The notes: generated by a model not told the origin, from the sequence alone. Numbered from the stretch's first letter, positions 12,492 to 43,404 are shown. The stretch is 64,000 bases of DNA from an uncultured bacterium (GCA_937951485.1 CALEDJ010000013.1:1-64000); one strand, 5' to 3'. Program-made: numbers and translations.

Positions 12492-14054
12492 TCAGGCTTC
12501 TTCGGTCACCTTCCATCCCAAGGCGTCGGCCAAAGCAAAAACCGGCTCCTTAAGGTCGCCGTAGAACGTGACGCGGTGCCATCCCCATCGGTCCCATTCG
12601 GTGAAAAGTTTCTCAAAGTCACCTACAGGCTCTGCGCAAATCTTGGTGCGGCAGGCGCGGTCGTCGGAATCATTGCCGACCACCTTGGCCTGGTGGAAGA
12701 GGATTTCCTTGTTCTCCTGAGACACCTCAAGCGAGGTACTCATGTAACCTGCGGGCACGATGGAGCGCACGGCGGCACCCTGGCGGTCTTCGGAATGCGT
12801 CAGGATTTCATAGGGATTGGTCGGGCCGTCCGGCCCGAAAACCTTGTTGGACGCGACACAATGCGCATAGATGATCTGTCGCTTTGCGGTGTCCATAACC
12901 GGATCGGAGATGTATCCTGGGCGGCCCTTGGTGAGCGTCGTGAACGCGACCATGGTCGCGGCGGACCTGATGTCGCATTCACAGCCGCCGACAAGCCCCT
13001 GATTATTCAGTTCATGGAAACCAAGGCATGGGTAGGCGTGGATGTGGCCGCCATAGAAACCACCGAGACAATTGATCGTGATTGCATTGGCGTTGTGTTT
13101 TTGCAAGACAGCCTTTTCCGCCAGGTACATCGCCGCCGATTGATCGAGAACCTCGCGGGGAACATTCTCAAGCCTGGCGGCGTTCTGTTGCCAACGGTCT
13201 GCGATAGCGCGCGCCTCATCCATGTCCGCTGCCTTCCAGGCCTCGTTCAGTTCCTTGAACGGAACATATTCGACCGCGATACCCATGACGGGGTCCCCAG
13301 AACGGGCGTTCTCGTCGAGCACCGCCAGAATTCTGCATTCGGCAATGCGCGCTTTCCATTCCTCAATCGAGAGCACTTCGACCGGGTCGGGAAGACAGCC
13401 CAAATCGCCGGGCATTGGCGTACCGGCGATGCGCGTGCGCGCGACCGCTGCCGCAAATTCCGACGCCGCGCCGCTTTGAATCACCGGCGCAAAACACTTT
13501 GCCGCGGCGATCAGGTCTTGAAGATTCGAGGAGGCGACAAAGCCCAGGTTGGGCGTGTTCTGCCGCAAGAACCCGGCGGCATAGACGAGAAAACCGCCGC
13601 TGCCGCCGTACTGGAAATCGGCGTAAAGCACCGGCTTGCCCGTTGCCGCGATGGGGTGCACCACGCGGTTCCAGCAATTCAACTGATAGACAATATAGCC
13701 CGCAATATTGGCGGACGCGTCTTCATGCAGAATCTGTTGCGCCTGTTCTTCGCCATTCGCCTTCGCTGTCAGGAATTCGTATTCCGGACACGCCTGGAGC
13801 AACGCGTTCGTAATCCGCTCCATGACCGGACGAAAATCAAACCCCACATTCGGCCAATCCGGTCCCGGTTGCACATCGGCATGAAGCGAATACACAATGC
13901 GAATGCGCGGCTTGCCGGAAGCCTGCGCCCACGTCCGCCTCGGCGCAGCCATCAGTCCTACCGCCCCCGCGCACGCGGCGCAACCCGATGCCAGAAAACG
14001 CCGACGACTCATCCCGCAGCATCCACACCCCGTCAATCTCGTTTCATGATTCAT
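12492..14054 (-). CDS. Tat-exported L-fucose/arabinose isomerase-like protein
   Basis: 520 residues from ATG 14054 (GGAG about 9 bases upstream; the 32-residue longer frame lacks a ribosome site). The N-terminus has a twin-arginine signal (SRRRFLA, then a hydrophobic stretch ending in a probable AQA cleavage), so it is exported folded. The mature part resembles the fucose-isomerase-like fold: YPCLGFHELNNQG, GGCECDIRSAATM, IYAHCVASNKVFG and a C-terminal HRVTFYGD. The gene at 41971 is a clear paralogue with the same motif order. The cytoplasmic isomerase family is not normally exported, so the substrate may be an external free sugar or a bound intermediate. Activity is not shown by the sequence. 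Confidence 0.65.
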   Translation of the reverse strand: MNHETRLTGCGCCGMSRRRFLASGCAACAGAVGLMAAPRRTWAQASGKPRIRIVYSLHADVQPGPDWPNVGFDFRPVMERITNALLQACPEYEFLTAKANGEEQAQQILHEDASANIAGYIVYQLNCWNRVVHPIAATGKPVLYADFQYGGSGGFLVYAAGFLRQNTPNLGFVASSNLQDLIAAAKCFAPVIQSGAASEFAAAVARTRIAGTPMPGDLGCLPDPVEVLSIEEWKARIAECRILAVLDENARSGDPVMGIAVEYVPFKELNEAWKAADMDEARAIADRWQQNAARLENVPREVLDQSAAMYLAEKAVLQKHNANAITINCLGGFYGGHIHAYPCLGFHELNNQGLVGGCECDIRSAATMVAFTTLTKGRPGYISDPVMDTAKRQIIYAHCVASNKVFGPDGPTNPYEILTHSEDRQGAAVRSIVPAGYMSTSLEVSQENKEILFHQAKVVGNDSDDRACRTKICAEPVGDFEKLFTEWDRWGWHRVTFYGDLKEPVFALADALGWKVTEEA

Positions 14055-14179
14055 TGTTTTTTCTCCATTTTTGATGAACACCCCCTCTGTCCCCGTTAAT
14101 ACAATTATAGGCATTTGCGCGGATAGAGACAAGATATTTTTTCGAAACAATCAATGCAACGGCACAAATTCGGAAATAC

Positions 14180-15451
14180 TCAGGGGATGACTTCCTTCAG
14201 TGCGGCCATCATGGCGGGGCCGGCCTGTTCGCCGGGGGACATGCTGATCTGGTATTCGGCGAAGGGGATGCCCTTGGGATTCTCGAAGAAACTGGGCGGG
14301 CAGATGTACCCGAGATGGTCCAGGCCGAGACCGAGGATAAACTTCGGTCCGGTTTTCATGAGTTCCCGCGTCTGGAAACTGAAGATCGGGGCGGTTTCCC
14401 CGGGGTGTGTGGCGAATTGCGCAGTGCCGATGGCGAACCAGGCCACTTCGGTCGGGATGCCGTCATCGCGCATGTCACGGACCAGAAGGCCGGCGTCGCG
14501 CAATTGCCGAAAGCCTTCGTTCTCCATTGGCATGATGAAGCGTTTGCTTGCGGCGCGAATGGCGTGTTCATGCATCGGCACGGCGCTCTGGAGTGCGGCA
14601 AGGGTCTTTTCGGCAAGGTCGTTGCCGTATTTCTCCGCCAATGAGAAGGTCCGTTCCGGCGTCCTGGGCTGAATCCACGCACCGATAGCCCCCTGCAGGA
14701 ACAGGTGTTCGCCGGGAAGCGCCCCGGCCATGATCTTGTAGAACGCGCCGACCCAGTCCGCGCTGACCAGTGTGTTATTGCCGTCGAGCACCGTGGGATG
14801 GCAGGCGAAATTGGTCAGGGTGGCGATGCTTTTTCCCGATTCATCGAGGCATTGCAGGATGACGACGGAATTGTCCAGCACATCCGCTTCGCTGTCGTTG
14901 ACGGCCCACCCGGCGCACACGGTTTCCGCATAACGCAGCGTGGCGGGCCGCCGTGCGGCGGCGGCGCGCGCCACTTGCGCAGTGGCCATGCTGACAAGGC
15001 GCTTCATATACTGCGGATTCACACCGTTGGTGGCGGCATCGGGGCCGTAGATGCCGATGGTGTCGGGCGCGGCATGGGTGTGGGTCGCCTGAACGATGAT
15101 CCGTTCCGGGGTCAGGTTCAATTCCTGCACACTTTTCGAGGCCGCCTCGCGGATTTCCTGCACTGTAGGATATTGCAGGCTGACGGCGTCCACCACGACC
15201 AACGCCACCGGCGTCTTGCCGTCATCGAAAACCACGGCCTTGACGAACAAGTCATCATGCACGCCCGTGGAAGCCCGGCCGTGGCCGTATCCGGCAAGGC
15301 AGGTTCCATCTTCCGGATTGATGGCGGCAGATGCCGCGCCCACCAGCAACGGACGGGTTTCAATGGCCGACGAAGGGGAGAGGCCGGAACAACCCAGCGC
15401 CAGCAGAACCATCAGACACGATACGAGGACCCGCTTGGACAGCATTCTCAT
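14180..15451 (-). CDS. Neutral/alkaline ceramidase-like lipoprotein
   Basis: 423 residues from ATG 15451, with AAAAGGAAA 8 bases upstream; ATG 15469, which overlaps the stop of the PRPP synthetase gene as ATGA, is the alternative and would couple translation. The signal peptide ends LALGCSG, a lipobox, so it should be outer-surface or periplasmic lipid-anchored. The neutral ceramidase family motifs are QATHTHAAPD (zinc histidines), NFACHPTVL and SADWVGAF. Such enzymes cut the amide of ceramides or related N-acyl substrates. It is the last gene of an overlapping operon after GH2 and the PRPP synthetase. Confidence 0.8.
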   Translation of the reverse strand: MRMLSKRVLVSCLMVLLALGCSGLSPSSAIETRPLLVGAASAAINPEDGTCLAGYGHGRASTGVHDDLFVKAVVFDDGKTPVALVVVDAVSLQYPTVQEIREAASKSVQELNLTPERIIVQATHTHAAPDTIGIYGPDAATNGVNPQYMKRLVSMATAQVARAAAARRPATLRYAETVCAGWAVNDSEADVLDNSVVILQCLDESGKSIATLTNFACHPTVLDGNNTLVSADWVGAFYKIMAGALPGEHLFLQGAIGAWIQPRTPERTFSLAEKYGNDLAEKTLAALQSAVPMHEHAIRAASKRFIMPMENEGFRQLRDAGLLVRDMRDDGIPTEVAWFAIGTAQFATHPGETAPIFSFQTRELMKTGPKFILGLGLDHLGYICPPSFFENPKGIPFAEYQISMSPGEQAGPAMMAALKEVIP

Positions 15452-15465
15452 TGCACGTTTCCTTT

Positions 15466-16431
15466 TCATGCCGGGAACAGGACGCTGATACTTTCTCTGT
15501 TATGAATACGGCGAATCGCCTCGCCGAACAAGGGGGCCACGGACACGATCTGCACCTTAGCCGAAAAGGGTTCAGGCTGCGTTTCCACGGTATCGGTGAT
15601 CAGCATGGTGCGGATGGGGCTGTCGTCAATCCTGTTCATGGCGCCCGGGGAAAAGACGCCGTGGGTCACGGCGGCGATGATATCGTGCGCGCCGCGTTCC
15701 ACGAGTTTGTGCGCCACTTCGATCAGGGTGCCGCCGGAAATTGTGAAATCATCCACTACAAGCGCGGTCTTGCCCCGCACACGCCCGATGATTTCCATGA
15801 CTTCCGCCTTTTCATCATGCGCGACGCGCTCCTTGTCGCCGATGGCGAGAGATACGCCGAGATAGGAGGCGTATTTGCGCGCCTTCTTGGCAAAACCCGT
15901 ATCCGGAGATACCACCACAAGGTCAGACAGGCGCATGGCTTTCACCGCTTCGCACATGACGGGCAGCGCATACAGATCATCCACCGGTATGCGGAAAAAT
16001 CCCTGAATCTGCGCGGCGTGCAGGTCGAGGGTAACCACGCGGTCGGCCCCGGCCGCCTCGATGGCGTCCGCGCAGACCCGCGCCCGGATGGACACCCTCG
16101 GCTCGTCCTTTTTGTCGCCCTTTGCGTAAGAAAAATAGGGCATCAGGACCGTTACCGATGCTGCGCTTGCGCGCTTCAGCGCGTCCACAAAGAAAAGCAA
16201 TTCCATGAAATTGTCGTTTGCGGGGTACGCGGTGGACTGCACAAAATACACGTGCCGCCCGCGCACGTTTTCCAGGATACGCACAAAAAGGTTGCCTTCG
16301 GAAAAGCGCAGTGTTTCACTCCTGGCCACGGGGATGCCCAGGTAATCGGCGATCTTTTTCGCAAGTTTCGGGCTGCCTGAACCACCGAAAATCAACACTT
16401 CGTCCGCAGACATCTTTGGTTTCTTGTTCAC
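15466..16431 (-). CDS. Ribose-phosphate pyrophosphokinase, divergent
   Basis: 321 residues, close to the usual length. Makes PRPP from ribose 5-phosphate and ATP, in the cytoplasm. Visible: LRFSEGNLFVRI (ATP side), PYFSYAKGDKKDEPR, LDLHAAQIQGFF (136-146), VVVSPDTGFAKKARKYA, and a PRPP loop VVDDFTISGGT (225-235). The loop has the two Asp and GGT, but residues 230-232 (T-I-S) replace the common I-D-T, so it is not a canonical Prs loop. GTG start at 16431 overlaps the GH2 stop (GTGA). It lies between two exported enzymes, an unusual place for a core enzyme. It may be a specialised second PRPP synthetase. Confidence 0.85.
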   Translation of the reverse strand: MNKKPKMSADEVLIFGGSGSPKLAKKIADYLGIPVARSETLRFSEGNLFVRILENVRGRHVYFVQSTAYPANDNFMELLFFVDALKRASAASVTVLMPYFSYAKGDKKDEPRVSIRARVCADAIEAAGADRVVTLDLHAAQIQGFFRIPVDDLYALPVMCEAVKAMRLSDLVVVSPDTGFAKKARKYASYLGVSLAIGDKERVAHDEKAEVMEIIGRVRGKTALVVDDFTISGGTLIEVAHKLVERGAHDIIAAVTHGVFSPGAMNRIDDSPIRTMLITDTVETQPEPFSAKVQIVSVAPLFGEAIRRIHNRESISVLFPA

Positions 16432-18716
16432 CGCGCCACCGCCTTTCCAATCAGGAACGCCATGTCGAAATACTGCCCACCCTTGTCTTGATGCACATGG
16501 ACAGTCAAGGTGTTCTTGCCGGGAAGCAAGGCGTCACGAACCGCTTCCGTCACATCAAAGGCTTCATATCCGTCGTTCCACCGCGGGCGTTGCCAGATGC
16601 GCTTGCCATTGAGATGGACTACGGTGTCATCATCATGATGCAGCACGATGACTGCGGCGTCGAATGCCGTCTCATCACAAGTGAATTCCTGTCGCAACCA
16701 GATGTCGCTCGTGCGCCATCGGGTTCGGATTTTGTCGTTCCATTCACCCCCCTTGAACCCGAACGGGGCATGGCCCTGCGCCCAGTCGCCGTCATTATAT
16801 CCGGGCTGTTCCCATCCCTCCGGCGGCGCGGTTTCCTTATAGCGCCAGGTTCCCGTATTGGGTCCGTCGTGCAGGGACCCCACCAGCACGCGCCAGTCCA
16901 TCGCCCCGCGCTTGGCGACTTGCACCGGCGGCTTGTCCTCATAGGCCGCGCGTCGGGTCATGGCTGCGCGCAGGGGGGCCACGTCAAACTTGGGTGTCCG
17001 GTCATAGGCATAGAGGCCGTTCTGTTCCTGTTCGATGTCGGTCAACTGGGTGTAACACAGACCGAAAATGAAGCGGTTGTCGAGCAGGGCGTCGCTAAGT
17101 CCTTTGAACCGGTCATAGAATTCCTGGAGGTCTTCCGGGGTTTTGCCATAACCCCAGCCGCCTTCGCCGACAGCCCAGCCAATGCCGCCGTACTCGCTGA
17201 TGAAAAACGGGACGGATGAATTCTGGCGAACGCCGTAGCGCGCAGGCAGCGCGAACGCACCGAGCGGCGAATAACCGTCGGTCCACCGCGCGCGGAAGGA
17301 CGGCGGGTCCTGGTTGTAGTCATGCGCGTCGAGCACTTCGGGGTCGGCGAGGTGGTGGGTCCAGCCGCTGGTTTCAATCACGGGGCGCGACGGATCGAGC
17401 GCGCGCGTCATCCGCACGACGGCCGCCTGCAGCGCGCCCGCCTCCGGCGGCGTTTCGTTGAACGGACACCACCCGATGATGGACGGATGATTGCGGTCCC
17501 GCTGCACAATGGCCACCCACTCGTTCATGATCGGCACATTCACGGCGGGATTGCCGTAGTCCGCGCCGAAACTGGGAAATTCGCCCCATACCAGATAGCC
17601 CAGCCGGTCGGCCCAGTGCAGAAAGCGCGGCTCGAAGACCTTTTGGTGCAGCCGCGCGCCGTTGAAACCGCAGGACTGCGACAACTCTATGTCGCGCCGC
17701 AGGTCAGCATCCGTTGGGGCGGTCCATACCCCGTCGGGATAGAATCCCTGGTCCAGCACCAGCCGCTGGAAAACAGACTTGTCGTTCAGGAGGATGGCGG
17801 CGCCTTCTATGGTGATGCGGCGCATGCCAAAGTAACTCCGCATCGAATCCACCACCGCGTCGCCCCGATGCAATTCCAAGTCAAGGTCATAAAGGAACGG
17901 ATCTTCCACCGACCACAGGCGCGGATTGGGCACGGGCAAAACCAGCGTATTGTTGCGCCATTCTGCTGTGCTTTGAGTTTCGCCGATCACGCCGGCGTCG
18001 GTATGCGCGCGCAGCACAATGCTCAATCCGTCCACCGGGCCGTCCACTTCAACCTTCACCACGGCGCACTCGCGTTTGGGGTCGGGGTCAATTTGAAAAG
18101 CCCTGATGAACGAAGCCCCCACGCCTTCCAGCCAGACCGTCTGCCAGATGCCCGTGGTGCGGGTGTAAAAGATTCCGGTACTCGGGCCTTTCCGGGTCTG
18201 CTTGCCCAACGCCTGCAAGCCGCTCGCGCCGTCATCGAACGCATGAATCACCAGGCGGTTCTCGCCCGGGTGCAGGGCGTCAGTGATATCGAACGCAAAG
18301 GCCACATTGCCACCAACGTGTTCGCCGACAGGCTGGCCGTTGACCCAGGCGCGCGTGCGCCAGTCGCATGCGCCGATATGCAGCCGGACGCGCGGGCTTT
18401 TCCAGTCCGCCGGCACGGTGAAGGAACGCCGATACCAGACGTTCTTCACCAGTTCCGTCCGCTCCAGTCCCGACAGGCGGCTTTCACGGCAGAACGGCAC
18501 CACGATGCGGTCAGGATAAGGGACATCGCCCAGGAAGGACACATCCCCATCGTCATCAGTCTCTGCAAACTCCCAGACCCCGTTCAGGTTCAGCCACTCC
18601 GCCCGTACATTCTGCGGCAGCGGATGCTCCGGTCGCGGTAGCGGTTCCGCTGCGCCGCCACCGGAGACGCCCGCCGTTGTCGCCAATACGAGCGCAATCC
18701 GCAATGCATTGTGCAT
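16428..18716 (-). CDS. Exported glycoside hydrolase family 2 protein
   Basis: 762 residues with a signal peptide (1-22, ending GAAEP) and a good GGAG ribosome site. Order: sugar-binding jelly roll (about 35-200, LNGVWEF to GIWQTVWLEGV), immunoglobulin-like domain (200-310), and TIM barrel. In the barrel, GWCPFNE has the acid/base at about Glu421, and ISEYGG has the nucleophile at about Glu508, so both catalytic residues are present. The end (about 610-760) is an extra beta-sandwich with a DDTVVHLNGKR-type lectin-like fold. A beta-galactosidase- or beta-glucuronidase-like activity is likely; the exact sugar is unknown. First gene of the overlapping operon with the PRPP synthetase. Confidence 0.9.
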   Translation of the reverse strand: MHNALRIALVLATTAGVSGGGAAEPLPRPEHPLPQNVRAEWLNLNGVWEFAETDDDGDVSFLGDVPYPDRIVVPFCRESRLSGLERTELVKNVWYRRSFTVPADWKSPRVRLHIGACDWRTRAWVNGQPVGEHVGGNVAFAFDITDALHPGENRLVIHAFDDGASGLQALGKQTRKGPSTGIFYTRTTGIWQTVWLEGVGASFIRAFQIDPDPKRECAVVKVEVDGPVDGLSIVLRAHTDAGVIGETQSTAEWRNNTLVLPVPNPRLWSVEDPFLYDLDLELHRGDAVVDSMRSYFGMRRITIEGAAILLNDKSVFQRLVLDQGFYPDGVWTAPTDADLRRDIELSQSCGFNGARLHQKVFEPRFLHWADRLGYLVWGEFPSFGADYGNPAVNVPIMNEWVAIVQRDRNHPSIIGWCPFNETPPEAGALQAAVVRMTRALDPSRPVIETSGWTHHLADPEVLDAHDYNQDPPSFRARWTDGYSPLGAFALPARYGVRQNSSVPFFISEYGGIGWAVGEGGWGYGKTPEDLQEFYDRFKGLSDALLDNRFIFGLCYTQLTDIEQEQNGLYAYDRTPKFDVAPLRAAMTRRAAYEDKPPVQVAKRGAMDWRVLVGSLHDGPNTGTWRYKETAPPEGWEQPGYNDGDWAQGHAPFGFKGGEWNDKIRTRWRTSDIWLRQEFTCDETAFDAAVIVLHHDDDTVVHLNGKRIWQRPRWNDGYEAFDVTEAVRDALLPGKNTLTVHVHQDKGGQYFDMAFLIGKAVAR

Positions 18717-19007
18717 GGTCTATTTCTCCTTCCTTGAAACAGTTTCTGAACCCGAAAAAACCATGGATAAAATCAAGTATGCTATGCAAAAGAGTCGGAA
18801 TCAAGCGCGGGCCGCAAGACAGTTTTTGTTCCGTTTCAGCGAAGTGGCATATCGCCGAAAATATCACGATTTCTCTTTATACCTCCGGCGCCTTGCGCCG
18901 ACAGTCCCTGACATTCCGCAAATGTATTGCCTGTTTTGCATCGCGTTGCTCCTGTCCTTTCGGTATCTGATAAGATAGCCGGGTAAAAACCCCATGGAGG
19001 ACATTTC

Positions 19008-20138
19008 ATGAATGTTATGACGGGAGTGTTGTTGCTGGCCGGGGCGACTTCGGCGGACGGAGCCGTTCCGATGGACGTTCACCATGTGAAGGTGTACTAC
19101 GAGCCCGGGCGTTTCGGCGGCTGGCCGGCCAATCACGGCGTCTGGCAATGGGGCGATGAAATCCTGGTGGGGTTCAGCCGGGGATACTACAAAGACCTCG
19201 GCGACCGCCATCACATTGACCGGGAAAAACCGGAAGAGCACTGGCTCGCCCGGAGTCTTGACGGCGGGGAAACATGGACCCTGGAGCACCCCGCAGAGAA
19301 GGGATTCCTCATCCCGCAAGGCGAAGCCCTGCATGGAATTGAAACTCCCGGGCTGCCCATTCCCGAATCCAGGCCATGTCCCGGCGGTATCCGCTTCGAC
19401 CACCCGGATTTCGCCATGACCGTCCGCATGTCGTCGAAAGATGCCGGATTCTCCCGTTTCTACTACTCCTGCGACCGTGGCCACACATGGGAAGGCCCGT
19501 TTCTCCTTCCACAATTCGACACCGCCGGTATCGCCGCACGGACCGACTATATCGTGGACGGCCCGGACACCTGCACCCTGTTTCTGACCGCAGCCAAACC
19601 GGATGGCAATGAAGGACGTCCACTGTGCGTGCGCACGGAAGACGGCGGCGCCACCTGGAAATTCCTGTCGTGGATCGGTCCGGAGCCGAAACAATATGCC
19701 ATCATGCCCGCCACAGTCCGTCTGTCGGAGAACGTGCTGATCACCGTGATTCGCAAGCGCGAGGGGCCGATTGGCTGGCTGGACGCCTACCGTTCAGAGG
19801 ACAACGGGCTTTCGTGGGAATTGTGCAGCACACCGGCGGACAATCTCGGCCCCGGCAATCCCGGCGCGATGATTCGTCTCAAGGATGGCCGCGTATGCCT
19901 CACCTACGGCAACCGCGCCGCGCCGTACACCATCCGCGCCCGGCTCTCCGATGACGGCGGACGATCCTGGGGTCCCGAAATCATCCTCCGCGACAACGGT
20001 CTCAGCCAGGACATCGGATATCCGCGCACGGTCCAGCGTCCCGACGGACGCATCGTGACAGTCTATTATTTCTGCGACCCGGAAACCGGTCCGGAACGCT
20101 ATATCGCCGCGACCATCTGGACCCCGCCCACACCCTAG
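19008..20138 (+). CDS. Sialidase-like Asp-box beta-propeller, probably secreted
   Basis: 376 residues starting 10 bases after GGAGG. The N-terminus is only weakly hydrophobic (MTGVLLLAGATSADGAV), possibly a short signal peptide. At least five Asp-box motifs are visible: SLDGGETWTLE, SCDRGHTWEGP, TEDGGATWKF, SEDNGLSWEL and SDDGGRSWGPE, the repeats of six-bladed sialidase/BNR propellers. The canonical arginine triad was not confirmed. It may be an exo-sialidase or a propeller glycosidase with another substrate. It is transcribed toward 20276-21343, another Asp-box gene. Confidence 0.78.
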   Translation: MNVMTGVLLLAGATSADGAVPMDVHHVKVYYEPGRFGGWPANHGVWQWGDEILVGFSRGYYKDLGDRHHIDREKPEEHWLARSLDGGETWTLEHPAEKGFLIPQGEALHGIETPGLPIPESRPCPGGIRFDHPDFAMTVRMSSKDAGFSRFYYSCDRGHTWEGPFLLPQFDTAGIAARTDYIVDGPDTCTLFLTAAKPDGNEGRPLCVRTEDGGATWKFLSWIGPEPKQYAIMPATVRLSENVLITVIRKREGPIGWLDAYRSEDNGLSWELCSTPADNLGPGNPGAMIRLKDGRVCLTYGNRAAPYTIRARLSDDGGRSWGPEIILRDNGLSQDIGYPRTVQRPDGRIVTVYYFCDPETGPERYIAATIWTPPTP

Positions 20139-20221
20139 AAACCCCTTTGGCGGGGGTGCCATTGCACAAAGCGCATCTGCGTTGCGCAATGCACAACCGC
20201 GCCCACCAATTCCCAATCCGT

Positions 20222-20257
20222 CCGTCTGACCCGTCTGACTCGTCCGACCCATCCGAC
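20222..20257. repeat. 9-base tandem repeat
   Basis: Four copies in a row: CCGTCTGAC, CCGTCTGAC, TCGTCCGAC, CCATCCGAC. It sits in the short gap between the two sialidase-like genes, just past the stop of one and before the stop of the other. No coding role is seen. Confidence 0.6.
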
Positions 20258-20275
20258 AAACGAAAGACCCCAAAT

Positions 20276-21343: not shown

Positions 21344-21386
21344 TGTTTTTTCCTCCATATCCTTCGGCGTTTCCCAAGCCCCCTAC

Positions 21387-21395
21387 ACTATAGCA
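21387..21395 (-). promoter_or_regulatory. Extended -10 promoter for 20276-21343
   Basis: TGC-TATAGT on the minus strand. The 17-base-upstream hexamer (GCGATT) is poor, so it relies on the extended -10. The expected start, near 21380, leaves about 37 bases before the ATG. Confidence 0.45.
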
Positions 21396-21459
21396 TGATG
21401 CGATGGAGGAATCGCCTTGTTTTTAACGATTTTCGTAATCCAGTGATTCCGGATTGGGC

Positions 21460-21488
21460 TTTACAACCAGGCGCAAACATGCTACCAT
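21460..21488 (+). promoter_or_regulatory. Promoter of the 47-residue gene
   Basis: TTTACA (21460-21465), 17-base spacer, TACCAT (21483-21488), with TGC ahead of the -10. The leader of about 79 bases holds a hairpin, GCGGGC (21504-21509) and GCCCGC (21518-21523). Confidence 0.6.
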
Positions 21489-21573
21489 CACGATAAATTT
21501 CCTGCGGGCGACGGGTTGCCCGCCGTGAAAAGAAAACTGGAACTCGGTAGGATGTCCAGGAGGAGGAGGGACA

Positions 21574-21717: not shown

Positions 21718-21733
21718 CCTGCGCGTAAGCGCA

Positions 21734-23173: not shown

Positions 23174-23181
23174 GGGAGGGC

Positions 23182-33987: not shown

Positions 33988-35787
33988 TCAGAACGGCCAA
34001 ACCAAGGGGATCAGCACCATAGCGGCCAGGAACAAGACCAGGTGCAACGGCATGCCGACGCGAAGAAAGTCGCTGAACTTGTAGCCGCCGGGGCCGAACA
34101 CCATGAGATTAGTCTGGTATCCGATGGGGGTGACAAAACTTGCCGACGCGGCGAACGTGATGGCCATGACCAGTGGTCGCGGGGAAACCGCGCTGCGCTC
34201 AGCGATGGCCAGCGCAAAAGGAAACACAAGGGCGGCGGCCGCATTGTTCGTGATCAACTCCGTGAAAACCCCGGTCATGAGGTAGACGCCCGCGAGCACG
34301 GCATACGGTCCCCAATGCCCCATGGATGCCACCGTGTATTCCGCGATCACCTCGACGAATCCGGACGCCATTAACGCCTTGCCCACACCGAAGGCCGCCC
34401 CGATGGTCACCAGAGTCCGCCAATCCACACTCTGGCGGGCGTCGGCCACCGAAATACACCGTGTCAGCAGCATCAATCCGGCCACCACAAACGCCGCCAT
34501 CACGATGTCCACAACCCCCGATGCCATCAGTACAAGAAGCAACACGAGCAGGCCCAGCGATATGGCCGCCTTGTCATAACGGAACGGACGCGCATCCTCG
34601 ATGCCGCCTACCAACAGAAAGTCGCGATTGTTGCGGTTGGCGCGCACGAAGTGCGCCCCCGCCTGGAGCAATAACGTGTCGCCGGGACGCAACACGATGT
34701 CGCCCACCCGTCCATGGAGCCGCTCGCCCCCGCGATGCACCGCCACAATCGCCGCATTGTAGCGCGCCCGGAAATCAGCATCGCGCACCGTCTTGCCCAA
34801 CACAGGCGATACGCCCGACACCACCGCCTCACACAGCACCTGGTCCCGCTGTTGCATGGAAACCGATGCGTAACTCGCATCCGCCACCGGCGACAAACCC
34901 TTGATTCGCTCCAAATCAACAATTGTGCTCACCACCCCTGTAAAGGTAAGAATGTCGCCGACGCGCAGTTTCTGGTCCGGCGTGACAGGCGCGATAATGT
35001 CGCCTTGCCGCTGAATTTCAATTAGAAACAGTCCTGGCAGATGACGCAGCCCCGCTTCTTCCACACCCTTGCCAGCGAGGCTGCACCCTTCCTCCACCCG
35101 CAGATTCACCAGATATTCCCGCGACCGTTGCGACAACTGCTCCAGAAACCCCTCGCGGTCGGGCAGGAGCCTGCGGCCCAGCCACAGCATATACGCCACG
35201 CCGATAATGGCATACGGCACCCCCACATAACTCAACTCAAAAAGCCGCATCGGGCGAAGCGTCTCCGATAAACCCGGATCACGCGCCGCCGCATCAATCA
35301 TCAGGCCGTTCACCACAAGGTTCGTGCTCGTTCCGATCAGGGTGCACGTGCCGCCCAGAATGCAGAAGTACGACAGCGGCAACAGCAAGCGCGACGGCGA
35401 TACCTGCCGCCGCTTGCACCACTCCTGCACAATCGGAATGAACATGCTCACAATCGGCGTGTTGTTCAAAAACGCCGACATGCCCGTCACACTCAACGCC
35501 ATCCGCACCATCGCGCCCCGTTCCGTCTGCGCGCGGCCCAACACCCATGAACCAATCCTGCTCAACGTGCCCGTCTCACGAAGCCCCGCCGCCACCACAT
35601 ACAGCGCCCCCACCGTCAACATACCCGTATTCGAAAACCCGTGAAACGCATCCTCCGGCGTAATCACTCCTGCCAGCGCAAACGCCACCACCGCCCCCAC
35701 AAGCAGCGCATCCGGCGCAAGGTTCGCCGCCAGACCGGCAAAAACAGCCACCAGCACCCCAACACTGAACCACGCTTCCCAGCCCAT
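33988..35787 (-). CDS. SLC13/DASS-type transporter with internal TrkA-C domains
   Basis: 599 residues. About 12 membrane helices in two halves; between them (about 215-385) sits a cytoplasmic insert with two TrkA-C-like units (VEEGCSLAGKGVEEAGLRHL, VSPVLGKTVRDADFRARY). Family signatures are TSTNLVVNG in the first half and YQTNLMVFGPGGY in the second. Relatives carry dicarboxylates, sulfate or arsenite with Na+. TrkA-C inserts usually mean regulation by ligand binding. Substrate not deducible here. Convergent with the XRE-cupin gene. Confidence 0.88.
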   Translation of the reverse strand: MGWEAWFSVGVLVAVFAGLAANLAPDALLVGAVVAFALAGVITPEDAFHGFSNTGMLTVGALYVVAAGLRETGTLSRIGSWVLGRAQTERGAMVRMALSVTGMSAFLNNTPIVSMFIPIVQEWCKRRQVSPSRLLLPLSYFCILGGTCTLIGTSTNLVVNGLMIDAAARDPGLSETLRPMRLFELSYVGVPYAIIGVAYMLWLGRRLLPDREGFLEQLSQRSREYLVNLRVEEGCSLAGKGVEEAGLRHLPGLFLIEIQRQGDIIAPVTPDQKLRVGDILTFTGVVSTIVDLERIKGLSPVADASYASVSMQQRDQVLCEAVVSGVSPVLGKTVRDADFRARYNAAIVAVHRGGERLHGRVGDIVLRPGDTLLLQAGAHFVRANRNNRDFLLVGGIEDARPFRYDKAAISLGLLVLLLVLMASGVVDIVMAAFVVAGLMLLTRCISVADARQSVDWRTLVTIGAAFGVGKALMASGFVEVIAEYTVASMGHWGPYAVLAGVYLMTGVFTELITNNAAAALVFPFALAIAERSAVSPRPLVMAITFAASASFVTPIGYQTNLMVFGPGGYKFSDFLRVGMPLHLVLFLAAMVLIPLVWPF

Positions 35788-35989
35788 GCAGGCATCCTTC
35801 CCATCGTCTTGAAATAATGGACGTAATCCTAGTCATTCCAATGCGCCACCGTCAATTTGCATTCAATCCGACGAGACTGATAAGGTTCCAGATTATGCGC
35901 GCCGCGACGGCGGTAATCCGGACAACAAGAGCACTTTCTCGCGCCGCAGCGCCACATTTCCATTGAACTGTCCCGGAAAGCACCGCGCC

Positions 35990-36066
35990 GGGCGGTTAGC
36001 TCAGTCGGCTAGAGCACCTGCCTTACACGCAGGGTGTCGCAGGTTCGAATCCTGCACCGCCCACCA
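35990..36066 (+). tRNA. tRNA-Val (anticodon UAC)
   Basis: 77 bases. Acceptor GGGCGGT pairs with ACCGCCC; D arm GCTCAGTCGGCTAGAGC; anticodon stem CCTGC/GCAGG around loop CTTACAC, giving anticodon TAC at 36024-36026; T arm GCAGG-TTCGAAT-CCTGC. The discriminator A is followed by an encoded CCA (36064-36066). Confidence 0.97.
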
Positions 36067-36712
36067 TTTTGCTTTCACTCGAAATTCTCTATCCGTAAAA
36101 CCTCGGCGGTGTGCGCGTCCATCCCAATGGATCGCACACCGCCCTTTATTTACGGGATTTTTTCGATGTGCCCTCCCTGACACCGCACCGGTTTCAACTC
36201 GCCCCCCGATCACACATCTGTCCCTATATGGACATGCCCTCGGCGACTTCCGGCGCTCACCCTGGAAGATATGGCCATCTTTCCCTGTATGGACAGGCCC
36301 GCGACTGTGTTGAAGCGACGCGGCTTGCTCTCCCGTTCCAACTCGCCGGACATAGTGAAAACATACGGTTCCTGAATTGCCGAATCTGCGCTGATCATTG
36401 CAGGCACTTGTTCCAAACCCAAGTCTGGGAGATGCCGTACCAGAGAGCATGGATAAAGGCAAGTGGAATCCACAGTCATCCCATAGGTTCTGATTTTCCG
36501 TTGTAAGCCCTTTGTTTTCATTGCCTGAATGGTGTTTTGAGCACATAGGGTGTTCATAATTTTCTCTAATCTGCGTGTGGGCTTTGTCAAGAACGGTCAT
36601 GTGCTGTCCCACAGCATTGTTGGTGAGAAAGGTCATCTCCACCCCGCGCTGTCCAAAATATTCTTAGCATTGAGAATAGCCTTCGATCATGTTGGATTTC
36701 CCCCTCACCCCA
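36067..36712. other. Gene-free stretch after tRNA-Val
   Basis: About 650 bases without a supported gene. Reading frames here are short, overlap the tRNA on the opposite strand, or lack ribosome sites and recognisable sequence. Two near copies of TATGGACA in a CCCT-TATATGGACATGCCC / CCCTGTATGGACAGGCCC setting (36224 and 36285) are seen, but no clear element. Confidence 0.5.
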
Positions 36713-36900
36713 CCCCTCTCCCGGAGGGAGAGGGAGCGACAGCATTACGCAGGTTGCGCGGTAAACACCCTCTCCCGGAGGGAGAGGGAGCGACAGCATT
36801 CCTCAGGTTGCGCGGTAAACACCCTCTCCCGCTGGTAGAGGGCGCAACAGCATTCCTCAGGTGGCGCGGTAAACACCCTCTCCCATTGGGAGAGGGGTGG
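36713..36900. repeat. 54-base tandem repeat, three to four units, each with a hairpin
   Basis: Units start near 36713, 36767, 36821 and 36875, exactly 54 bases apart from the second unit on. Each begins with ACCCTCTCCC and the mirrored GGGAGAGGG (a hairpin), followed by AGCGACAGCATT-CTCAGGTTGCGCGGT with a few changes. The last unit runs into the dispersed repeat at 36873. Reading frames exist only because 54 is divisible by 3; their periodic peptide is a by-product of the repeat. Confidence 0.85.
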
Positions 36901-37064
36901 GGTGAGGGGAAAAAAAACAGAACACCTTGGTACACGGGTCAATGACGTCTCAGGAATCCCACGGAGAGGTTTGCGTATAAGATAAGCCCGCCACATTATT
37001 TTGATTCAACAGGATTTTCCAAGGGTTTCGGGCATGGTCTTTCATCTTCTTAATAATATATTTA
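36873..37064. repeat. Dispersed repeat, copy B
   Basis: The second copy of the element at 1-190, in the same orientation and again just downstream of a leftward gene (the kinase ending at 37122). Shared blocks run in the same order over about 190 bases with scattered substitutions and small gaps. It is fused to the 54-base tandem array at its left end. Confidence 0.8.
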
Positions 37065-37121
37065 GCACAAAAATAATAAAATATATATATGCAAAATTGT
37101 ACTTTTCGTGCTGAGGTTTCC

Positions 37122-39293
37122 TCAGAAACGAATTGCTTCCAGTCGCACCATGACCACGCTTGGCGACCGGGGCGCGGGAACGAGGGCATAATGTCCGTCT
37201 TCGGAGAGGATAAGCCCCTGCCTTACCCCGCTGTCGAGGAAAGTCAACTGCTTTCTGGCGTGCGGCGGAACCGCATCCATCGCCCAAACCTGGAGGCGAT
37301 TAGCGTGGTCCAGGGCCGGCGCCACGCAATAGTCCCCCTGCGGCCGCCAGACCGCTTCTTCTCCGGGACCCAACGCGGCGAGGGTCGCCCCGTCAGCAAG
37401 GTTGATTTGGCGAATCATGCGCGGTCCATCCACAGATTGCACGGCGCAAAGCAGGCTTTGTCCATCGGGATGGAAAGGCGATTGGGCCATTTGAATATCC
37501 CCATCCAGTAGAATCCTGCTTTCCATGCGCCTCCCATGGATTTCACCCAGCCGGAGTTCCTTGCGGCCATGCGACTCCCCGCAGAGATAGACAACGGCGC
37601 TTCCGTCCGCGCGCAGCGCGACCTGGCGAATGGAAGATGTATGCGCAACCAATTCCGTATTCTTCGATATGCCTTCGAGGGCAGTGGTCTCGATGACCCA
37701 ATGATGCGCCTCAAGTCGGCGCACCAACATCATTTCGTCGCCCTTCGGCGACGCCGCCAGCGCTGCTGCCGGATAATCTGCAACGGTCCGCATCGTGCCG
37801 CCGGTCAATCCCAAGAATAGCGTCCTGCTCCCTGTGGCGAGATATGCGCCCGGCTCCCCATTGCCCGCGGCGCCGCCTGCAAGCAAGCGAAACGACGCGA
37901 CGTGCCCATCCGGAAGGGGTGCTAACATGACGGCGGCATCCTGGACGGATGGATTCGTTACGGCGATCATCCGCTGTCCCTGTCGGGGCGTATTGGGCAG
38001 GCCCGTAAACTCGATCACGGCATCCGCAAAGCCGCCCGCCCAGTACATGCCGGCGACCTCAAAATCGGGCAGGGAAAAATGGGCCACCGAGACAGCGGCA
38101 GTTTCTTCCTTGAATCGCGCCACGGGCGGCGCGTGAAACCAGCGGCTTGCATCCTGAGCCGCCTTCAAATCCGGAATGAGGCCGCTGCGCGCGGCGATCA
38201 TGTGTTCCGCCACTGGTTTCAGCAGCATCGTGGCGGATACCACGATCAGCAGCAATGTGACACCAGCAACAGCCAAGCGCACTGCTTTGCTCAATTCAAA
38301 CCAGCGTCGCCGCAATCGGTTGAGGATTTTCGTCCTGGGACGCATCTCGGTGGTCGTTTCGCGACGCAACGCATGCGCGGGCGTATGCGGCAAAGAACTA
38401 CGGAAAGCCGCGATGGCATTGCTCATCTGGTCGGCCTGTTCATCCAGCGGCAGTCCTTGCAGGACGCGTTCAATCGCATGCTGCAATGCCCGCGCGTTTT
38501 TCGGGCGATCCAGGGGGTTCTTCTCGATCATGTGGGCGATGAGGCGTTCGACCGAATCGGGCACGTCCGGAGCATAGGTCCGCAGTCTGGCCGGCGGCAT
38601 ATGCGCGATCTTCTGGACCAGTTCCACCGGGTTGGCGGCTTCAAAAGGCAATCTTCCGGAGATGCATTGAAACAACAATACACCCAGCGAGTAGATGTCG
38701 CTGGCGGGGGAGACCTCTTTGTTCCGGCAGCGTTCCGGGCACATGTATTGTGGCGTGCCCAGTCGCATTCCGTCCTGGGTGAGTTGCGAGGACGCATTGA
38801 GGATTTTCGCGATCCCGAAATCCGTCACATGCGCCTTGCCGGTCCTGTCAATAATGATGTTCGCGGGCTTGATGTCGCGGTGAATGATCATGGCGTCATG
38901 CGCGCAGGCCAGGGCGGCGGCCACCTGCGCGCCAATTTCCAGGGCTTCGCGCCAGGGCATGGGGCCGTTGGCCGTCAGCATGTCGCTGAGGGAAACGCCC
39001 TCGATGAATTCCATGGCGATATAAGGAATCCTGCCCACCGTTCCCACGGAATACACGCGGACGATATTGGGATGGTCCAATTGCGCAAATGCCTTTGCCT
39101 CTTGCTTGAACCGCGCGATGATCTGGGGCTGCGCACGGAATTCGTCTCGCAGAATTTTCAGCGCAACCGTCCGGCCGAGGGTCAGGTCAACGGCGCGATA
39201 GACCACGCCCATCCCCCCCGATCCCGTGGTCTCCAGAATTTCATAGCCCCCGAAGACGTAGCGTTCCGGCGCGTGGCTGATGCCTCTGCTCAT
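37122..39293 (-). CDS. Membrane Ser/Thr protein kinase with propeller-like sensor
   Basis: 723 residues. Kinase domain about 15-275: P-loop GSGGMGVVY, Lys46, HRDIKPANIII, TDFGIAK and YMCPERC; all catalytic residues present. A linker is followed by one membrane helix (about 335-360, VRLAVAGVTLLLIVVSATML), then a 350-residue external region with WD40/TolB-like strands (SPFHPDGQSLLCAV, ALRADGSAVVYLCG). A transmembrane sensor kinase is the likely role. Its ATG is 27 bases after the stop of the kinase at 39321, so the two are co-transcribed. A small hairpin overlaps its stop codon. Confidence 0.92.
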   Translation of the reverse strand: MSRGISHAPERYVFGGYEILETTGSGGMGVVYRAVDLTLGRTVALKILRDEFRAQPQIIARFKQEAKAFAQLDHPNIVRVYSVGTVGRIPYIAMEFIEGVSLSDMLTANGPMPWREALEIGAQVAAALACAHDAMIIHRDIKPANIIIDRTGKAHVTDFGIAKILNASSQLTQDGMRLGTPQYMCPERCRNKEVSPASDIYSLGVLLFQCISGRLPFEAANPVELVQKIAHMPPARLRTYAPDVPDSVERLIAHMIEKNPLDRPKNARALQHAIERVLQGLPLDEQADQMSNAIAAFRSSLPHTPAHALRRETTTEMRPRTKILNRLRRRWFELSKAVRLAVAGVTLLLIVVSATMLLKPVAEHMIAARSGLIPDLKAAQDASRWFHAPPVARFKEETAAVSVAHFSLPDFEVAGMYWAGGFADAVIEFTGLPNTPRQGQRMIAVTNPSVQDAAVMLAPLPDGHVASFRLLAGGAAGNGEPGAYLATGSRTLFLGLTGGTMRTVADYPAAALAASPKGDEMMLVRRLEAHHWVIETTALEGISKNTELVAHTSSIRQVALRADGSAVVYLCGESHGRKELRLGEIHGRRMESRILLDGDIQMAQSPFHPDGQSLLCAVQSVDGPRMIRQINLADGATLAALGPGEEAVWRPQGDYCVAPALDHANRLQVWAMDAVPPHARKQLTFLDSGVRQGLILSEDGHYALVPAPRSPSVVMVRLEAIRF

Positions 39294-39320
39294 ATCGTCG
39301 GTGCTCCCGGCGGCGATGAT

Positions 39321-41612
39321 TTACGCCGCAAACAAAACCATGCTCAAGTCCACGAATACAATGTGCTGTGATCCCGGTACGCCGGTTACTGTGGCCGCCC
39401 AGCGTCCATCGCGGGATACGGCCCCGCCTCCCTGCACGCCTTCCGTCAATCGGGTGATTCGGCGGCGCGGATGCGGTGCAGTGCATGCAACCGCCCAGAG
39501 TTGGTCGCGGTCCGTCTCCGCATCATATGCAGTGAGAATGAGATAGCGCCCCGTGGGATGCCAGCATTCAGGGAAAATCCTGCCTTCGCCGAGCCGGGCT
39601 TCGGTTTCGCCGGTGTCGGTGCGAATCAATAAGACATGGTCCGCGCCGCCGGCTGTCGTGTGATGCACTGCGAGAAGCGGCGAAGAAGGATGGAACACGG
39701 CGGTCTCGCCAAGCCGGCCGGACGCGATCAATCGCGTATTCCGCGTCGTCACGCCGGAGGCCGCCACCCAAAGTTCCCTGTTGCCATCATCTTTGCGGCG
39801 CATGTAGGCGATTTCGGCGCCATCCGGCGCATAATGCGCGGTGCCGGGGATGATGGGAAGTCCCGGCGCAGCGATGCGCACGCCGCCTTCATGGGGCGAT
39901 TCCCCGGCGATCTCGGATTCCACGAGATAATTGGCGCGGGCCGCCGCATCCCACAAAAGCAGGCAAACAGTGCGCCCGTCAGGATGCACAGCGGCCCCGC
40001 CTAATACGGCGTTTTGCCAAGGGGCTTCCAGCAACGGCGCGGCCTCCTCGATGACTGCCCGATGCAATGCCTTGCGACGCGGCGCGGCTTCGTTCAGTCG
40101 CTGGGCCGCCGTGTACAACACGCCCCCGGTGCGGTCTTCCGATGTGGCCAAGTATTGTACGGGCAACGCGCCATGGAACGGCGCAGACTCCGGGCAATCG
40201 GGAATCTCGCCGGAAATCAGGACGGGAATGCGTCCCCGCCAGTATGCGTCGTCCATGATGGCGCTTGTCGGGGCGCGCAGGCTCCAGGCGCTTTCCGTGA
40301 TGGGATTGACCGCGAGCAATCCGCGCGCGCCATGGGCCATGGACCCCGGCAAACCTTCCAATTCCGCGACGACAACGTGGTCTTTGCCGGCCCAATGCAA
40401 CCCTGTCACCGTCCATGGCGCAGGCGGCAACACCGCCGCAATACCATCATCCAGCGTCCGAAATGCAATACCCAGCGCCGGCGCGGCCCGAACGACTTCC
40501 GTCGCGCCCACATAGCGCCAATAGCCCGCCCCGGCAAACGCCGTGATCAGCATCAGCGCCACGACAATTTTGGAATACACGCTGATGGGCATCCAATAAC
40601 GCCGCCGCTGATAGGTGAGTCTGGGGCGGGTCCGCATTCGCGACAGGGGCGTCGGCGTGTCCGCCCGCAATGTTCGGGGGCGTGTTTCTTCACGAATAAA
40701 CGCATTCAAAGCCTCCGGCAAGGCCGATGCACCGCCGTTTTCCTTCTGTAGCCTGCGAATCTGTTCGCTGACATGCTTCGCGGACGCTGGTCTTTTGGCG
40801 GGGTCTTTTTCCAGCAGATGCGCCACCAGCCGGGCCACATCATCGGGAATCGCCGGGTCCAACTGCGACAAACGCGGCGGATCTTCCGTCATGATGCTGT
40901 TCATGAGCGCAACGGTGGAGCGCCCTGTGAAAGGCATGCGCCCGGAAAGCATCTGATAGAGTGTGACCCCCAGCGAAAACAAATCGCAGGCGGGGCCGAT
41001 ATCCACGGCGCCCATGCATTGTTCCGGCGCCATGTAATCCGGCGTGCCTGTAATGTGCGCAACACCACCCCGCTCCGCAGGGCGGTCTCCCGCGATGGCG
41101 TCTTCCTCGCAGGCGTTGGCGATCCCAAAATCAGTCAGCCGCACCCGGCCCTGATGGTCCAAGAGTATATTCGCCGGTTTCACGTCTCTGTGCACAATCC
41201 CATGCGCATGCGCGCAGGCCAGCGCCTCAGCCACCTGGTGCGCAATATGCAGGGCGTTCTGCCATTTCAGCGTCGCGCCGCGACGCCGCAAAAATCGGTC
41301 CAGCGGTTCGCCTTCCACATATTCCATGGCAATATAAGGCGTCCCCCCGCGAATGCCCGCTTCGTACATCGCCACGATGTTTGGATGACGCAACGGCGCC
41401 GCTGCCTGCGCCTCCCGCTGAAAGCGACGCACCTGGTCAGGGTTGCGCGCAAGACTTCCGAGCAGCACTTTCAACGCCACGGGACGCCCAAGCGCCTCGT
41501 CCCGCGCCAGGTACACCGCGCCCATCGCGCCACGCCCGATCAACGCTTTGACCGCATAATTCCCCAGCGACTTCCCAATGAGGGATGCCTGCCCACTCCC
41601 AGACGCCACCAT
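39321..41612 (-). CDS. Membrane Ser/Thr protein kinase with propeller-like sensor
   Basis: 763 residues from ATG 41612 (GGAG 9 bases upstream; the frame to 41672 would start upstream of the transcription start). Kinase domain about 17-275 with GRGAMGAVY, VALKVL (Lys), HRDVKPANILL, TDFGIAN and YMAPEQC. One membrane helix at about 350-375 separates it from a C-terminal region of TolB/WD40-like repeats (VHPDGRTVCLLLWD, YAPDGAEIAYMRRK). It is arranged like the next kinase, probably from duplication. First gene of the pair, with a near-consensus promoter at 41663-41691. Confidence 0.92.
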   Translation of the reverse strand: MVASGSGQASLIGKSLGNYAVKALIGRGAMGAVYLARDEALGRPVALKVLLGSLARNPDQVRRFQREAQAAAPLRHPNIVAMYEAGIRGGTPYIAMEYVEGEPLDRFLRRRGATLKWQNALHIAHQVAEALACAHAHGIVHRDVKPANILLDHQGRVRLTDFGIANACEEDAIAGDRPAERGGVAHITGTPDYMAPEQCMGAVDIGPACDLFSLGVTLYQMLSGRMPFTGRSTVALMNSIMTEDPPRLSQLDPAIPDDVARLVAHLLEKDPAKRPASAKHVSEQIRRLQKENGGASALPEALNAFIREETRPRTLRADTPTPLSRMRTRPRLTYQRRRYWMPISVYSKIVVALMLITAFAGAGYWRYVGATEVVRAAPALGIAFRTLDDGIAAVLPPAPWTVTGLHWAGKDHVVVAELEGLPGSMAHGARGLLAVNPITESAWSLRAPTSAIMDDAYWRGRIPVLISGEIPDCPESAPFHGALPVQYLATSEDRTGGVLYTAAQRLNEAAPRRKALHRAVIEEAAPLLEAPWQNAVLGGAAVHPDGRTVCLLLWDAAARANYLVESEIAGESPHEGGVRIAAPGLPIIPGTAHYAPDGAEIAYMRRKDDGNRELWVAASGVTTRNTRLIASGRLGETAVFHPSSPLLAVHHTTAGGADHVLLIRTDTGETEARLGEGRIFPECWHPTGRYLILTAYDAETDRDQLWAVACTAPHPRRRITRLTEGVQGGGAVSRDGRWAATVTGVPGSQHIVFVDLSMVLFAA

Positions 41613-41662
41613 GGATTGTGCTCCGAGTACGAAATTATTCCCATATATGGTATTATGAGAAC

Positions 41663-41691
41663 AAGATAGCATGAAATATTATTTTTGTCAA
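41663..41691 (-). promoter_or_regulatory. Promoter of the kinase pair
   Basis: Minus strand: perfect TTGACA (41691-41686), exactly 17 bases, TATCTT (41668-41663), with TGC before the -10. The predicted start near 41655 gives a leader of about 43 bases and supports the choice of ATG 41612. Confidence 0.75.
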
Positions 41692-41970
41692 GAATTTATT
41701 TACGGGTAACGCTTGTAAAGTATCCCTTTGCGCGCATACGCGGTGGATTATGGAAACAGGGCCGATTTGGGACATCGCAGCAGGCAAGTACACGCGGCAT
41801 CCTGCCGCGTTCCTCACGTGTGGATTTGGGAGGGAGGCTGGCTGTTCTTTCCTGTGCGGAGGGGATATACTATGGGGCATTCGGAAGTGGTTGCCTCGGG
41901 GAGACGCATCACACCTGCGGGGACTGCAAGCGTTACGTAAGGGTCATCTCTGACCAAGGAGGATACAGCG
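41692..41970. other. Divergent leader region before the Tat-exported isomerase-like gene
   Basis: About 280 bases with no supported gene: overlapping short frames on both strands have no ribosome sites. A small stem GGTCA-TCTC-TGACC (about 41942-41955) lies just upstream of the GGAGG ribosome site of the gene at 41971. No clear promoter for that gene was found. Confidence 0.45.
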
Positions 41971-43404
41971 ATGTGTGAGCACTGTACGCGGAGGGAGTTT
42001 TTTGGAATGGGCGCGGCAGGCGGGCTGTTGCTGGCCGGAGCGGCGTGGTCATATGCCTGGGCTTCCGAGTCGCCGCCGGTCCGTGCGCGCGGCAAGTCGC
42101 GCATCGGCGTCCTCTTCACGGGGAATCCCCAACCTGCGGACCGCAATTGGGGAGCGGATGCCGGACAGATCAACGCGATACGCGCGCGGCTTGCGGAAGC
42201 GGAAAAGCGTCTGGGCAATATCGAACTGATGATTGGTGAATCGCGCAGCCCGGCGGATACCGAGGCATTTCTGGATCAGACCGGACAGAATGCGCCCATT
42301 CTGGCGATCAACGTGGAGAACTTCGCGCTGACGCGCGTGGTCGGCCCGATTCTGAAAGCGGGCCGTCCCATGGCCGTGTTTTCCTTGCCTGCGAGCGGCC
42401 ACGATTGGATGTACGCGCCAAGGTGGCTCCGGTCGGGGCACCGTGTGGCGTTGTTGGCCAGCAGCGATTACGACGAGTTGGAACGCGCGCTGCGTGTGCT
42501 GCGCGTGATTCCCATGATGCAAGAGACCCGGATTCTGCTCTTTCCGCCCGCACGGGGCACCAAGGCGGCGTGTTCGCCCGATGAAGTCAAGAAGCGCCTG
42601 GGCGCGGATGTGGTGGCGGTGGAGGAAAAAGTTTTCGACGACCTCATCACCGCTGCGGACGAAGCGGCCGTCCGTGCAGAGATCGAAGCGTGGACCAAGG
42701 GCGCAAAGGAAATTCTCGAACCGACCGCGGAAGACATCGAGAAAGCGGCGCGGGTCAGCGTTGCCCTTGACCGGCTCATGGACCAGCAGCAGGCCGACGC
42801 CCTGGCCATCGGCACGTGCATGGGCTGGCTGCCGCGCGGGTTCCCCTGCCTGGGGTTCGCGCGACTGCGCGATCGCGGCCTGCCGGCGGCCTGTGAGGGT
42901 GACATGGATTCCCTGCTGACCATGCTGCTCTTCCAGTATGCGACAGACAAGCCGGGATTCCAAGGGAACGCCACCTTTGACACCGCACGAAATGCCCTGT
43001 GGACCGCCCACTGCACCGCGCCGTTGAAGATGGACGGCCCGGACGGCGAAGCGGCGCCATATTTACTGCGCGGCCATTCCGAGGTCGGCGGCAGCGGCTG
43101 CGTGCCCGAAGTGCAGTACCGCGTCGGCGAAGTGATCACCCGAACCAAACTGGTAAATCTCGACACCATCCTGGCATCCACGGGCAAGATCATCGAGGTG
43201 CCCGAGCGGGCCGTGCACGGCTGCCGCACGCAAATCGTCACCGAGGTGCGCGACGCTGCCACGATGGCCGCGAACTGGAGCAGCGCGCTGGAAACAGAGG
43301 ACGCCATGACGCTGCTGCACCGCGTGGTGTTTTATGGCGACCACATGCAAAGTCTGCGCCACCTCGCCAACCTGATGGGCCTTCAGGTCATCGAGGAAGG
43401 CTGA
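41971..43404 (+). CDS. Tat-exported L-fucose/arabinose isomerase-like protein
   Basis: 477 residues. AAGGAGG precedes the ATG. Twin-arginine signal CTRREFFGMGAAGG and a hydrophobic run ending in AWASE. The mature part has the fucose-isomerase-like order FPCLGFARLRDRG, ACEGDMDSLLTMLL, ALWTAHCTAPLKMDG, RGHSEVGGSG and HRVVFYGDHMQ, matching its paralogue at 12492 block by block. The C-E-G-D and A-H-C blocks could hold the metal ligands of isomerases, but the export signal argues for a different, external substrate. Alone on its strand; lpxK follows convergently. Confidence 0.65.
   Translation: MCEHCTRREFFGMGAAGGLLLAGAAWSYAWASESPPVRARGKSRIGVLFTGNPQPADRNWGADAGQINAIRARLAEAEKRLGNIELMIGESRSPADTEAFLDQTGQNAPILAINVENFALTRVVGPILKAGRPMAVFSLPASGHDWMYAPRWLRSGHRVALLASSDYDELERALRVLRVIPMMQETRILLFPPARGTKAACSPDEVKKRLGADVVAVEEKVFDDLITAADEAAVRAEIEAWTKGAKEILEPTAEDIEKAARVSVALDRLMDQQQADALAIGTCMGWLPRGFPCLGFARLRDRGLPAACEGDMDSLLTMLLFQYATDKPGFQGNATFDTARNALWTAHCTAPLKMDGPDGEAAPYLLRGHSEVGGSGCVPEVQYRVGEVITRTKLVNLDTILASTGKIIEVPERAVHGCRTQIVTEVRDAATMAANWSSALETEDAMTLLHRVVFYGDHMQSLRHLANLMGLQVIEEG

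Follow-up and report, generated by a model that had tools for sequence, protein, structure and literature searches.

Genes A and B, which lie 27.9 kb apart in a 64,000-nucleotide window (the whole stretch of DNA that was analysed) from an uncultured bacterium, encode two proteins that share the fold of the L-arabinose isomerase AraA and the L-fucose isomerase FucI and that both begin with a twin-arginine (Tat) signal. On balance, we lean towards reading them as members of a Tat-exported, extracytoplasmic branch of the AraA/FucI group, in which A would be a metal-dependent isomerase acting on outside sugars and B an altered form. This reading draws on computed homology, fold, ligand-position conservation, a universal Tat motif and clade structure, from which we infer the identity of the metal, the time of its insertion, periplasmic residence, the isomerase reaction and the class of substrate. 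The known AraA and FucI are cytoplasmic, and every known sugar isomerase with this fold is, to our knowledge, a cytoplasmic enzyme that makes sugars ready for kinases. The fold and the superfamily are already known; the exported branch, which has no curated model, appears to be new, as it did not turn up in the literature covered. If the reading is true, several bacterial phyla would have members that rearrange sugars ahead of uptake, which current models of polysaccharide breakdown do not include.

The original prediction had placed two paralogous reading frames here, about 28 kb apart and sharing four sequence blocks in the same order, and all of this was recovered:

12492..14054, minus strand: gene A, 520 aa, ATG start, Tat-signal protein with the AraA/FucI fold
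41971..43404, plus strand: gene B, 477 aa, Tat-signal protein with the AraA/FucI fold over its full length
14104..14132, minus strand: promoter-like site upstream of A, TTGTCT-17-TATAAT, 10 of 12 positions (a consensus match only)

The blocks PCLGF, CE-x-D, AHC and HRV-x-FYGD are found at residues 342, 358 (CECD), 397 and 493 (HRVTFYGD) of A and at residues 292, 308 (CEGD), 346 and 450 (HRVVFYGD) of B. A BLASTP comparison of the two proteins gives 110 bits (E 3e-30) with 29% identity over 406 aa, and their similarity is therefore beyond chance. On the minus strand of the window, ceramidase-like, PRPP synthetase and GH2 genes precede A, which has its own promoter-like site, while an AGGAGG sequence lies a little 5′ of the ATG of B. 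The three genes upstream of A (14180-18716) overlap by 4 bases each, and a gene for a DUF4434 protein adjoins A on the plus strand (11219-12340). The source genome (77 contigs, 4.5 Mb) carries more family members on other contigs, namely three Tat-signal paralogues (C33:14451, C45:143547 and C16:20507) and a weaker family match without a Tat signal (C33:55442). The view of A and B as a local pair therefore holds as to their homology but is too narrow, since there are several exported paralogues and the split is ancient.

A twin-arginine start had been predicted for both genes, and is present in each:

13920..14054, minus strand: N-terminal signal region of A, residues 1-45, Cys-rich before and after SRRRFL, model pLDDT mostly <50
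13992..14006, minus strand: twin-arginine core RRRFL of A, residues 17-21, within SRRRFL (R17, R18)
41989..42003, plus strand: twin-arginine core RREFF of B, residues 7-11, within TRREFF (R7, R8) and preceded by MCEHCT

Both proteins have the RRxF/L motif with a hydrophobic stretch behind it, and their genome encodes TatC. The RRxF motif is invariant in a whole-family alignment of 44 members and in an alignment of 64 members, and is found, followed by a hydrophobic stretch, in all full-length members of the exported clade examined, including those at loci L054, L104 and L136. Among A-type reading frames, 79 of 83 carry the Tat motif; three of the remaining four are cut by contig ends and the fourth is a fragment of a disrupted tandem copy (L082). 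From these signals we infer a periplasmic location for A and B, and metal loading before export. Signal cleavage in A near AQA is a guess.

Relatives of A are widespread in bacteria and occur in many phyla. A scan of one genome per species found 133 relatives among the stretches that matched, and the best 80 of these, with 57-77% identity, were kept; judged by record titles, these come from Planctomycetota, Hydrogenedentota, Verrucomicrobia, Aminicenantes, Acidobacteria, Bacteroidota, KSB1 and others, and the closest among the matches listed (77%) is from a Hydrogenedentota genome, which makes this the likely phylum of the source genome. Orthologues of B, with 73-83% identity, were found in 13 other genomes of the same phylum, of which 68 genomes were covered. 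A quick tree built from 67 members places A in one clade and B in another (SH-aLRT 100 for each), and the phylogeny called for by the original prediction sets the exported members apart from three cytoplasmic relatives, also with an SH-aLRT of 100; the deep branching order is uncertain because of long branches. Judged by these sequences, A and B are anciently separated members of one exported clade. A recent local duplication is ruled out, as they belong to separate clades, each with orthologues in other genomes. Adjacent exported paralogues occur in genomes of two families (L095:7094-11926, L096:5674-10512 and L098:3988-7151), those of L098 being close to a carbohydrate ABC transporter. In a Gemmatimonadota record (L051:8001-11022), an A orthologue and a second exported paralogue adjoin on one strand.

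In fold comparisons of the AlphaFold2 models of A (pLDDT 91.0, pTM 0.87) and B (pLDDT 90.5, pTM 0.88), L-arabinose and L-fucose isomerases rank at the top for both proteins, with Z about 28 against 10.5-10.8 for the next rows. The best Foldseek matches of A are L-arabinose isomerases (E 1e-17 to 1e-14), followed by FucI (E about 1e-12). Superposition of A gives Z 27.8 with AraA (279 residues, 2.6 Å) and 26.9 with FucI, the next unrelated row being at 10.8, and the match spans residues 228-520, which correspond to the two C-terminal domains. B superposes on the isomerases with Z 28.3 over 412 residues and in all three domains (next row 10.5). The three-domain alpha/beta fold of AraA (E. coli NP_414604; PDB 4f2d, 2ajt) and FucI (E. 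coli NP_417282; PDB 1fui), for each of which Z is 27-28, is thus present in the two C-terminal domains of A and in all domains of B. Searched singly against the sequences of solved structures, neither A nor B had a relevant match, and the family profile reaches AraA among them at E 2e-4. When the family was compared by hhalign with the FucI-like protein that the source genome encodes, the only match was short and of low probability.

Neither A nor B reaches any of the Pfam or NCBIfam isomerase cut-offs, and the family has no curated model or name. Its genes are therefore likely to be unnamed or misnamed. Pfam PF02952 (Fucose_iso_C) matches neither protein, and its search of the same genome finds three other genes. 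With the L-arabinose isomerase models, A scores 19.3 bits for PF24856 (cut-off 24) and 18.2 for NF002795 (cut-off 622), and B has no match to either. The nearest curated model is that of the sulfoquinovose isomerase SftI/SqvD (NF048012), which 31 of 44 family members match at E up to 0.01, and for which A scores 42 bits (E 5e-11) and B 15.8 against an equivalog cut-off of 700 bits. SqvD is an aldose-ketose isomerase of the same superfamily; its role is in sulfoglycolysis, and a review of that subject (PMC9594981) describes no exported form. A literature search, whose coverage excluded most subscription journals, found no exported fucose or arabinose isomerase.

The equivalents of the metal ligands are located as follows, those of A being given first:

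12972..12983, minus strand: CECD block of A, C358-E359-x-D361; E359 corresponds to AraA E306 and to the metal ligand E337 of FucI
12903..12905, minus strand: Asp384 of A, corresponding to FucI D361 (metal ligand and acid/base) and also aligning with AraA D334
12858..12863, minus strand: AHC block of A, His398 and Cys399; His398 corresponds to AraA H350
12576..12578, minus strand: His493 of HRVTFYGD in A, corresponding to AraA H450 and to the metal ligand H528 of FucI
42892..42903, plus strand: CEGD block of B, C308-E309-x-D311
42967..42969, plus strand: Asn333 of B, replacing the ligand FucI D361 / A D384; Asn in all B orthologues examined
43009..43014, plus strand: His347-Cys348 of B, AHC block
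43318..43320, plus strand: His450 of HRVVFYGD in B

The Mn2+ of FucI is bound by Glu337, Asp361 and His528, and the first two of these also move the hydrogens (PMC6894278). Equivalence with the E. coli AraA and FucI sequences, taken from the K-12 record, was assigned by aligning sequences and profiles that share 11-20% identity, rather than by superposing coordinates. On this basis A keeps the full FucI ligand set, since E359, D384 and H493 align with those three residues, while B keeps two of the three (E309 and H450) and has Asn333 in place of the Asp. Neither a different fold nor a loss of all metal-ligand positions, the two outcomes against which the isomerase idea had been set, is seen in either protein. 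Across 139 family members, D361 and H398 are each conserved in 138, E359 in 134 (Asp in four) and H493 in 134 (four gaps); at the D384 position 110 members have Asp and 28 have Asn, a distribution that requires at least four changes on the tree.

The likeness to the known enzymes has limits. AraA shares 11-14% identity with A and B, and its E306, H350 and H450 are kept in A as E359, H398 and H493. Of its catalytic Glu pair, E306 is retained but E333 is not, aligning with Ser383 in A and Gly332 in B; it is the neighbouring D334, rather than E333 itself, that aligns with D384. FucI, of about 590 aa, shares 15-18% identity and differs in its substrate residues, Q300 aligning roughly with G335 in A and with an Arg in B. 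AraA and FucI are both cytoplasmic and have no Tat signal. As the FucI substrate residues are not kept, the substrate of A and B is probably neither fucose nor arabinose, and the Asn of B at the position of a metal-binding and catalytic Asp suggests that the two proteins probably do not do the same thing. The isomerase-like identity first proposed thus survives as regards fold and the metal-ligand positions of A, but not as regards L-fucose/L-arabinose isomerases proper, given 11-18% identity, scores below every cut-off, altered FucI substrate residues and a sulfoquinovose isomerase as the nearest curated model.

Under the favoured reading, A would fold in the cytoplasm and bind a divalent metal, probably Mn2+, at E359, D384 and H493, with H398 nearby. 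The Tat system would export it already folded, and outside the inner membrane it would interconvert an aldose and a ketose through ene-diol chemistry. Exported glycosidases, sulfatases and oxidoreductases would release its putative substrate, a free sugar or a modified one. B would be an anciently diverged paralogue whose second acid/base Asp has become Asn; its retention of the fold, of the Cys signature and of two ligands makes it probable that a related sugar is bound, the isomerase chemistry being altered or lost.

The gene contexts of the family, at A loci and around the cytoplasmic relatives, all point to sugars. Among 80 loci no conserved operon surrounds A, the commonest neighbour family being found in 10. 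Sulfatases recur at 10 loci, xylose-isomerase-like TIM barrels at 7 and Gfo/Idh/MocA oxidoreductases also at 7, counts that are small and to be read with the frequency of sulfatases in these phyla in mind; several of the oxidoreductase and TIM-barrel isomerase neighbours carry Tat signals. In the cultured Seramator thermalis m5 (L061:302-11357), the A orthologue lies within a same-strand run of genes in the order GH43-CBM6, class II aldolase, beta-helix protein, an unidentified gene, GH9, AGE epimerase, A and FAD oxidoreductase. This cultured carrier makes the question of an exported isomerase testable. The cytoplasmic relatives, annotated as "L-fucose/L-arabinose isomerase family protein" in Sodalis and Chlorohelix and present in the source genome (C33:55346 and C58), share C329, C343, C358-E-x-D, H-C and the C-terminal His with A and B but lack a signal peptide. 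The annotated ones sit with kinase, transketolase, ABC transporter or phosphofructokinase genes: that of Sodalis is found with a sugar ABC transporter, a transketolase and an FGGY kinase. A relative without a Tat signal in the source genome (L103:5815-9751, contig C33) is flanked by aldolase-like and FGGY-kinase-like genes, labels given by reading the sequences and not by model match. On a Chlorohelix plasmid (L170:1-6173), a cytoplasmic relative occurs with a PPi-type phosphofructokinase, and sulfite reductase and siroheme genes adjoin; this gene set may be a sulfosugar pathway.

Besides the metal-ligand positions, the family shares a set of cysteines:

13068..13070, minus strand: Cys329 of A, invariant in 139 of 139 members
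13026..13028, minus strand: Cys343 of A, PCLGF block, 138 of 139, one residue undetermined
12651..12653, minus strand: Cys468 of A, 134 of 139, four gaps
42817..42819, plus strand: Cys283 of B, corresponding to A Cys329
42847..42849, plus strand: Cys293 of B, corresponding to A Cys343
43222..43224, plus strand: Cys418 of B, corresponding to A Cys468

C358 is conserved in all 139 members and C399 in 138. In the secondary structure of the model, C329, C358 and C399 lie at or just past the strand ends of the central domain of A, beside E359 and H398, and the cysteines may meet at the active site. Their only counterpart in AraA or FucI is AraA C355, which aligns with C399. As a mark of export the core cysteines are ruled out: four of the five are present in the cytoplasmic relatives, including those of Sodalis and Chlorohelix, and they therefore mark a wider group.

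Because these cysteines lie outside the known AraA/FucI mechanism, they limit the predicted isomerase reading and lend some weight to an alternative that we regard as possible, if rather unlikely: that A and B are exported metal enzymes of the same fold, with invariant cysteines in the active site, that catalyse another sugar reaction. Candidates would be epimerisation, dehydration or lyase-type chemistry on keto-sugars produced by exported Gfo/Idh/MocA oxidoreductases. The invariance of C329, C343, C358 and C399 in A, three of which follow or end strands next to E359 and H398, is consistent with such a role, as is the recurrence of the oxidoreductase and TIM-barrel neighbours, several of which carry Tat signals. 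However, where cytoplasmic relatives carry these cysteines, their genes neighbour those for sugar kinases, aldolases or transketolase, a setting typical of isomerases, and the superfamily also includes SqvD, an aldose-ketose isomerase (PMC9594981). A bolder and doubtful extension supposes an unrecognised active site in the exported branch, where the invariant cysteines beside Glu, Asp and His would hold a cofactor inserted before Tat export, and where the enzyme, together with exported oxidoreductases and TIM-barrel isomerases, would make up a pathway that rearranges sugars on the outer side of the inner membrane.

It is also unlikely that A, B or both are non-catalytic, sugar-binding pseudo-isomerases that keep the fold and serve, for example, as periplasmic sensors or buffers. 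Such a role would fit the Asn that is fixed at the catalytic Asp position in B, and the variability of the gene neighbourhood; for B it is most plausible. The N-terminal domain does resemble periplasmic sugar-binding proteins (Z about 10), but this likeness reflects a common Rossmann-like arrangement. A, moreover, keeps all the FucI ligands, and across the 139 members, which come from many phyla, the Glu, the two His and the cysteines are almost always retained, more than fold or binding would need.

That A and B are cytoplasmic isomerases like the known AraA and FucI, with a chance or vestigial N-terminal Arg pair, is very improbable, as RRxF and the hydrophobic stretch found throughout the full-length exported clade are absent from all three cytoplasmic relatives, the signals of nine A-type members end in lipobox-like sites, and the low-confidence N-terminus of the A model is signal-peptide-like. 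The Tat signals themselves, as in A (13920-14054) and B (41971-42003), often contain cysteine. A Cys within nine residues before the twin Arg is found in 85 of 104 family members and in 9 of 40 other Tat-signal proteins from the same loci, a test that is inflated because family members are kin, and a CxxC just after RRxF occurs in 51 of the 104 and in none of the 40.
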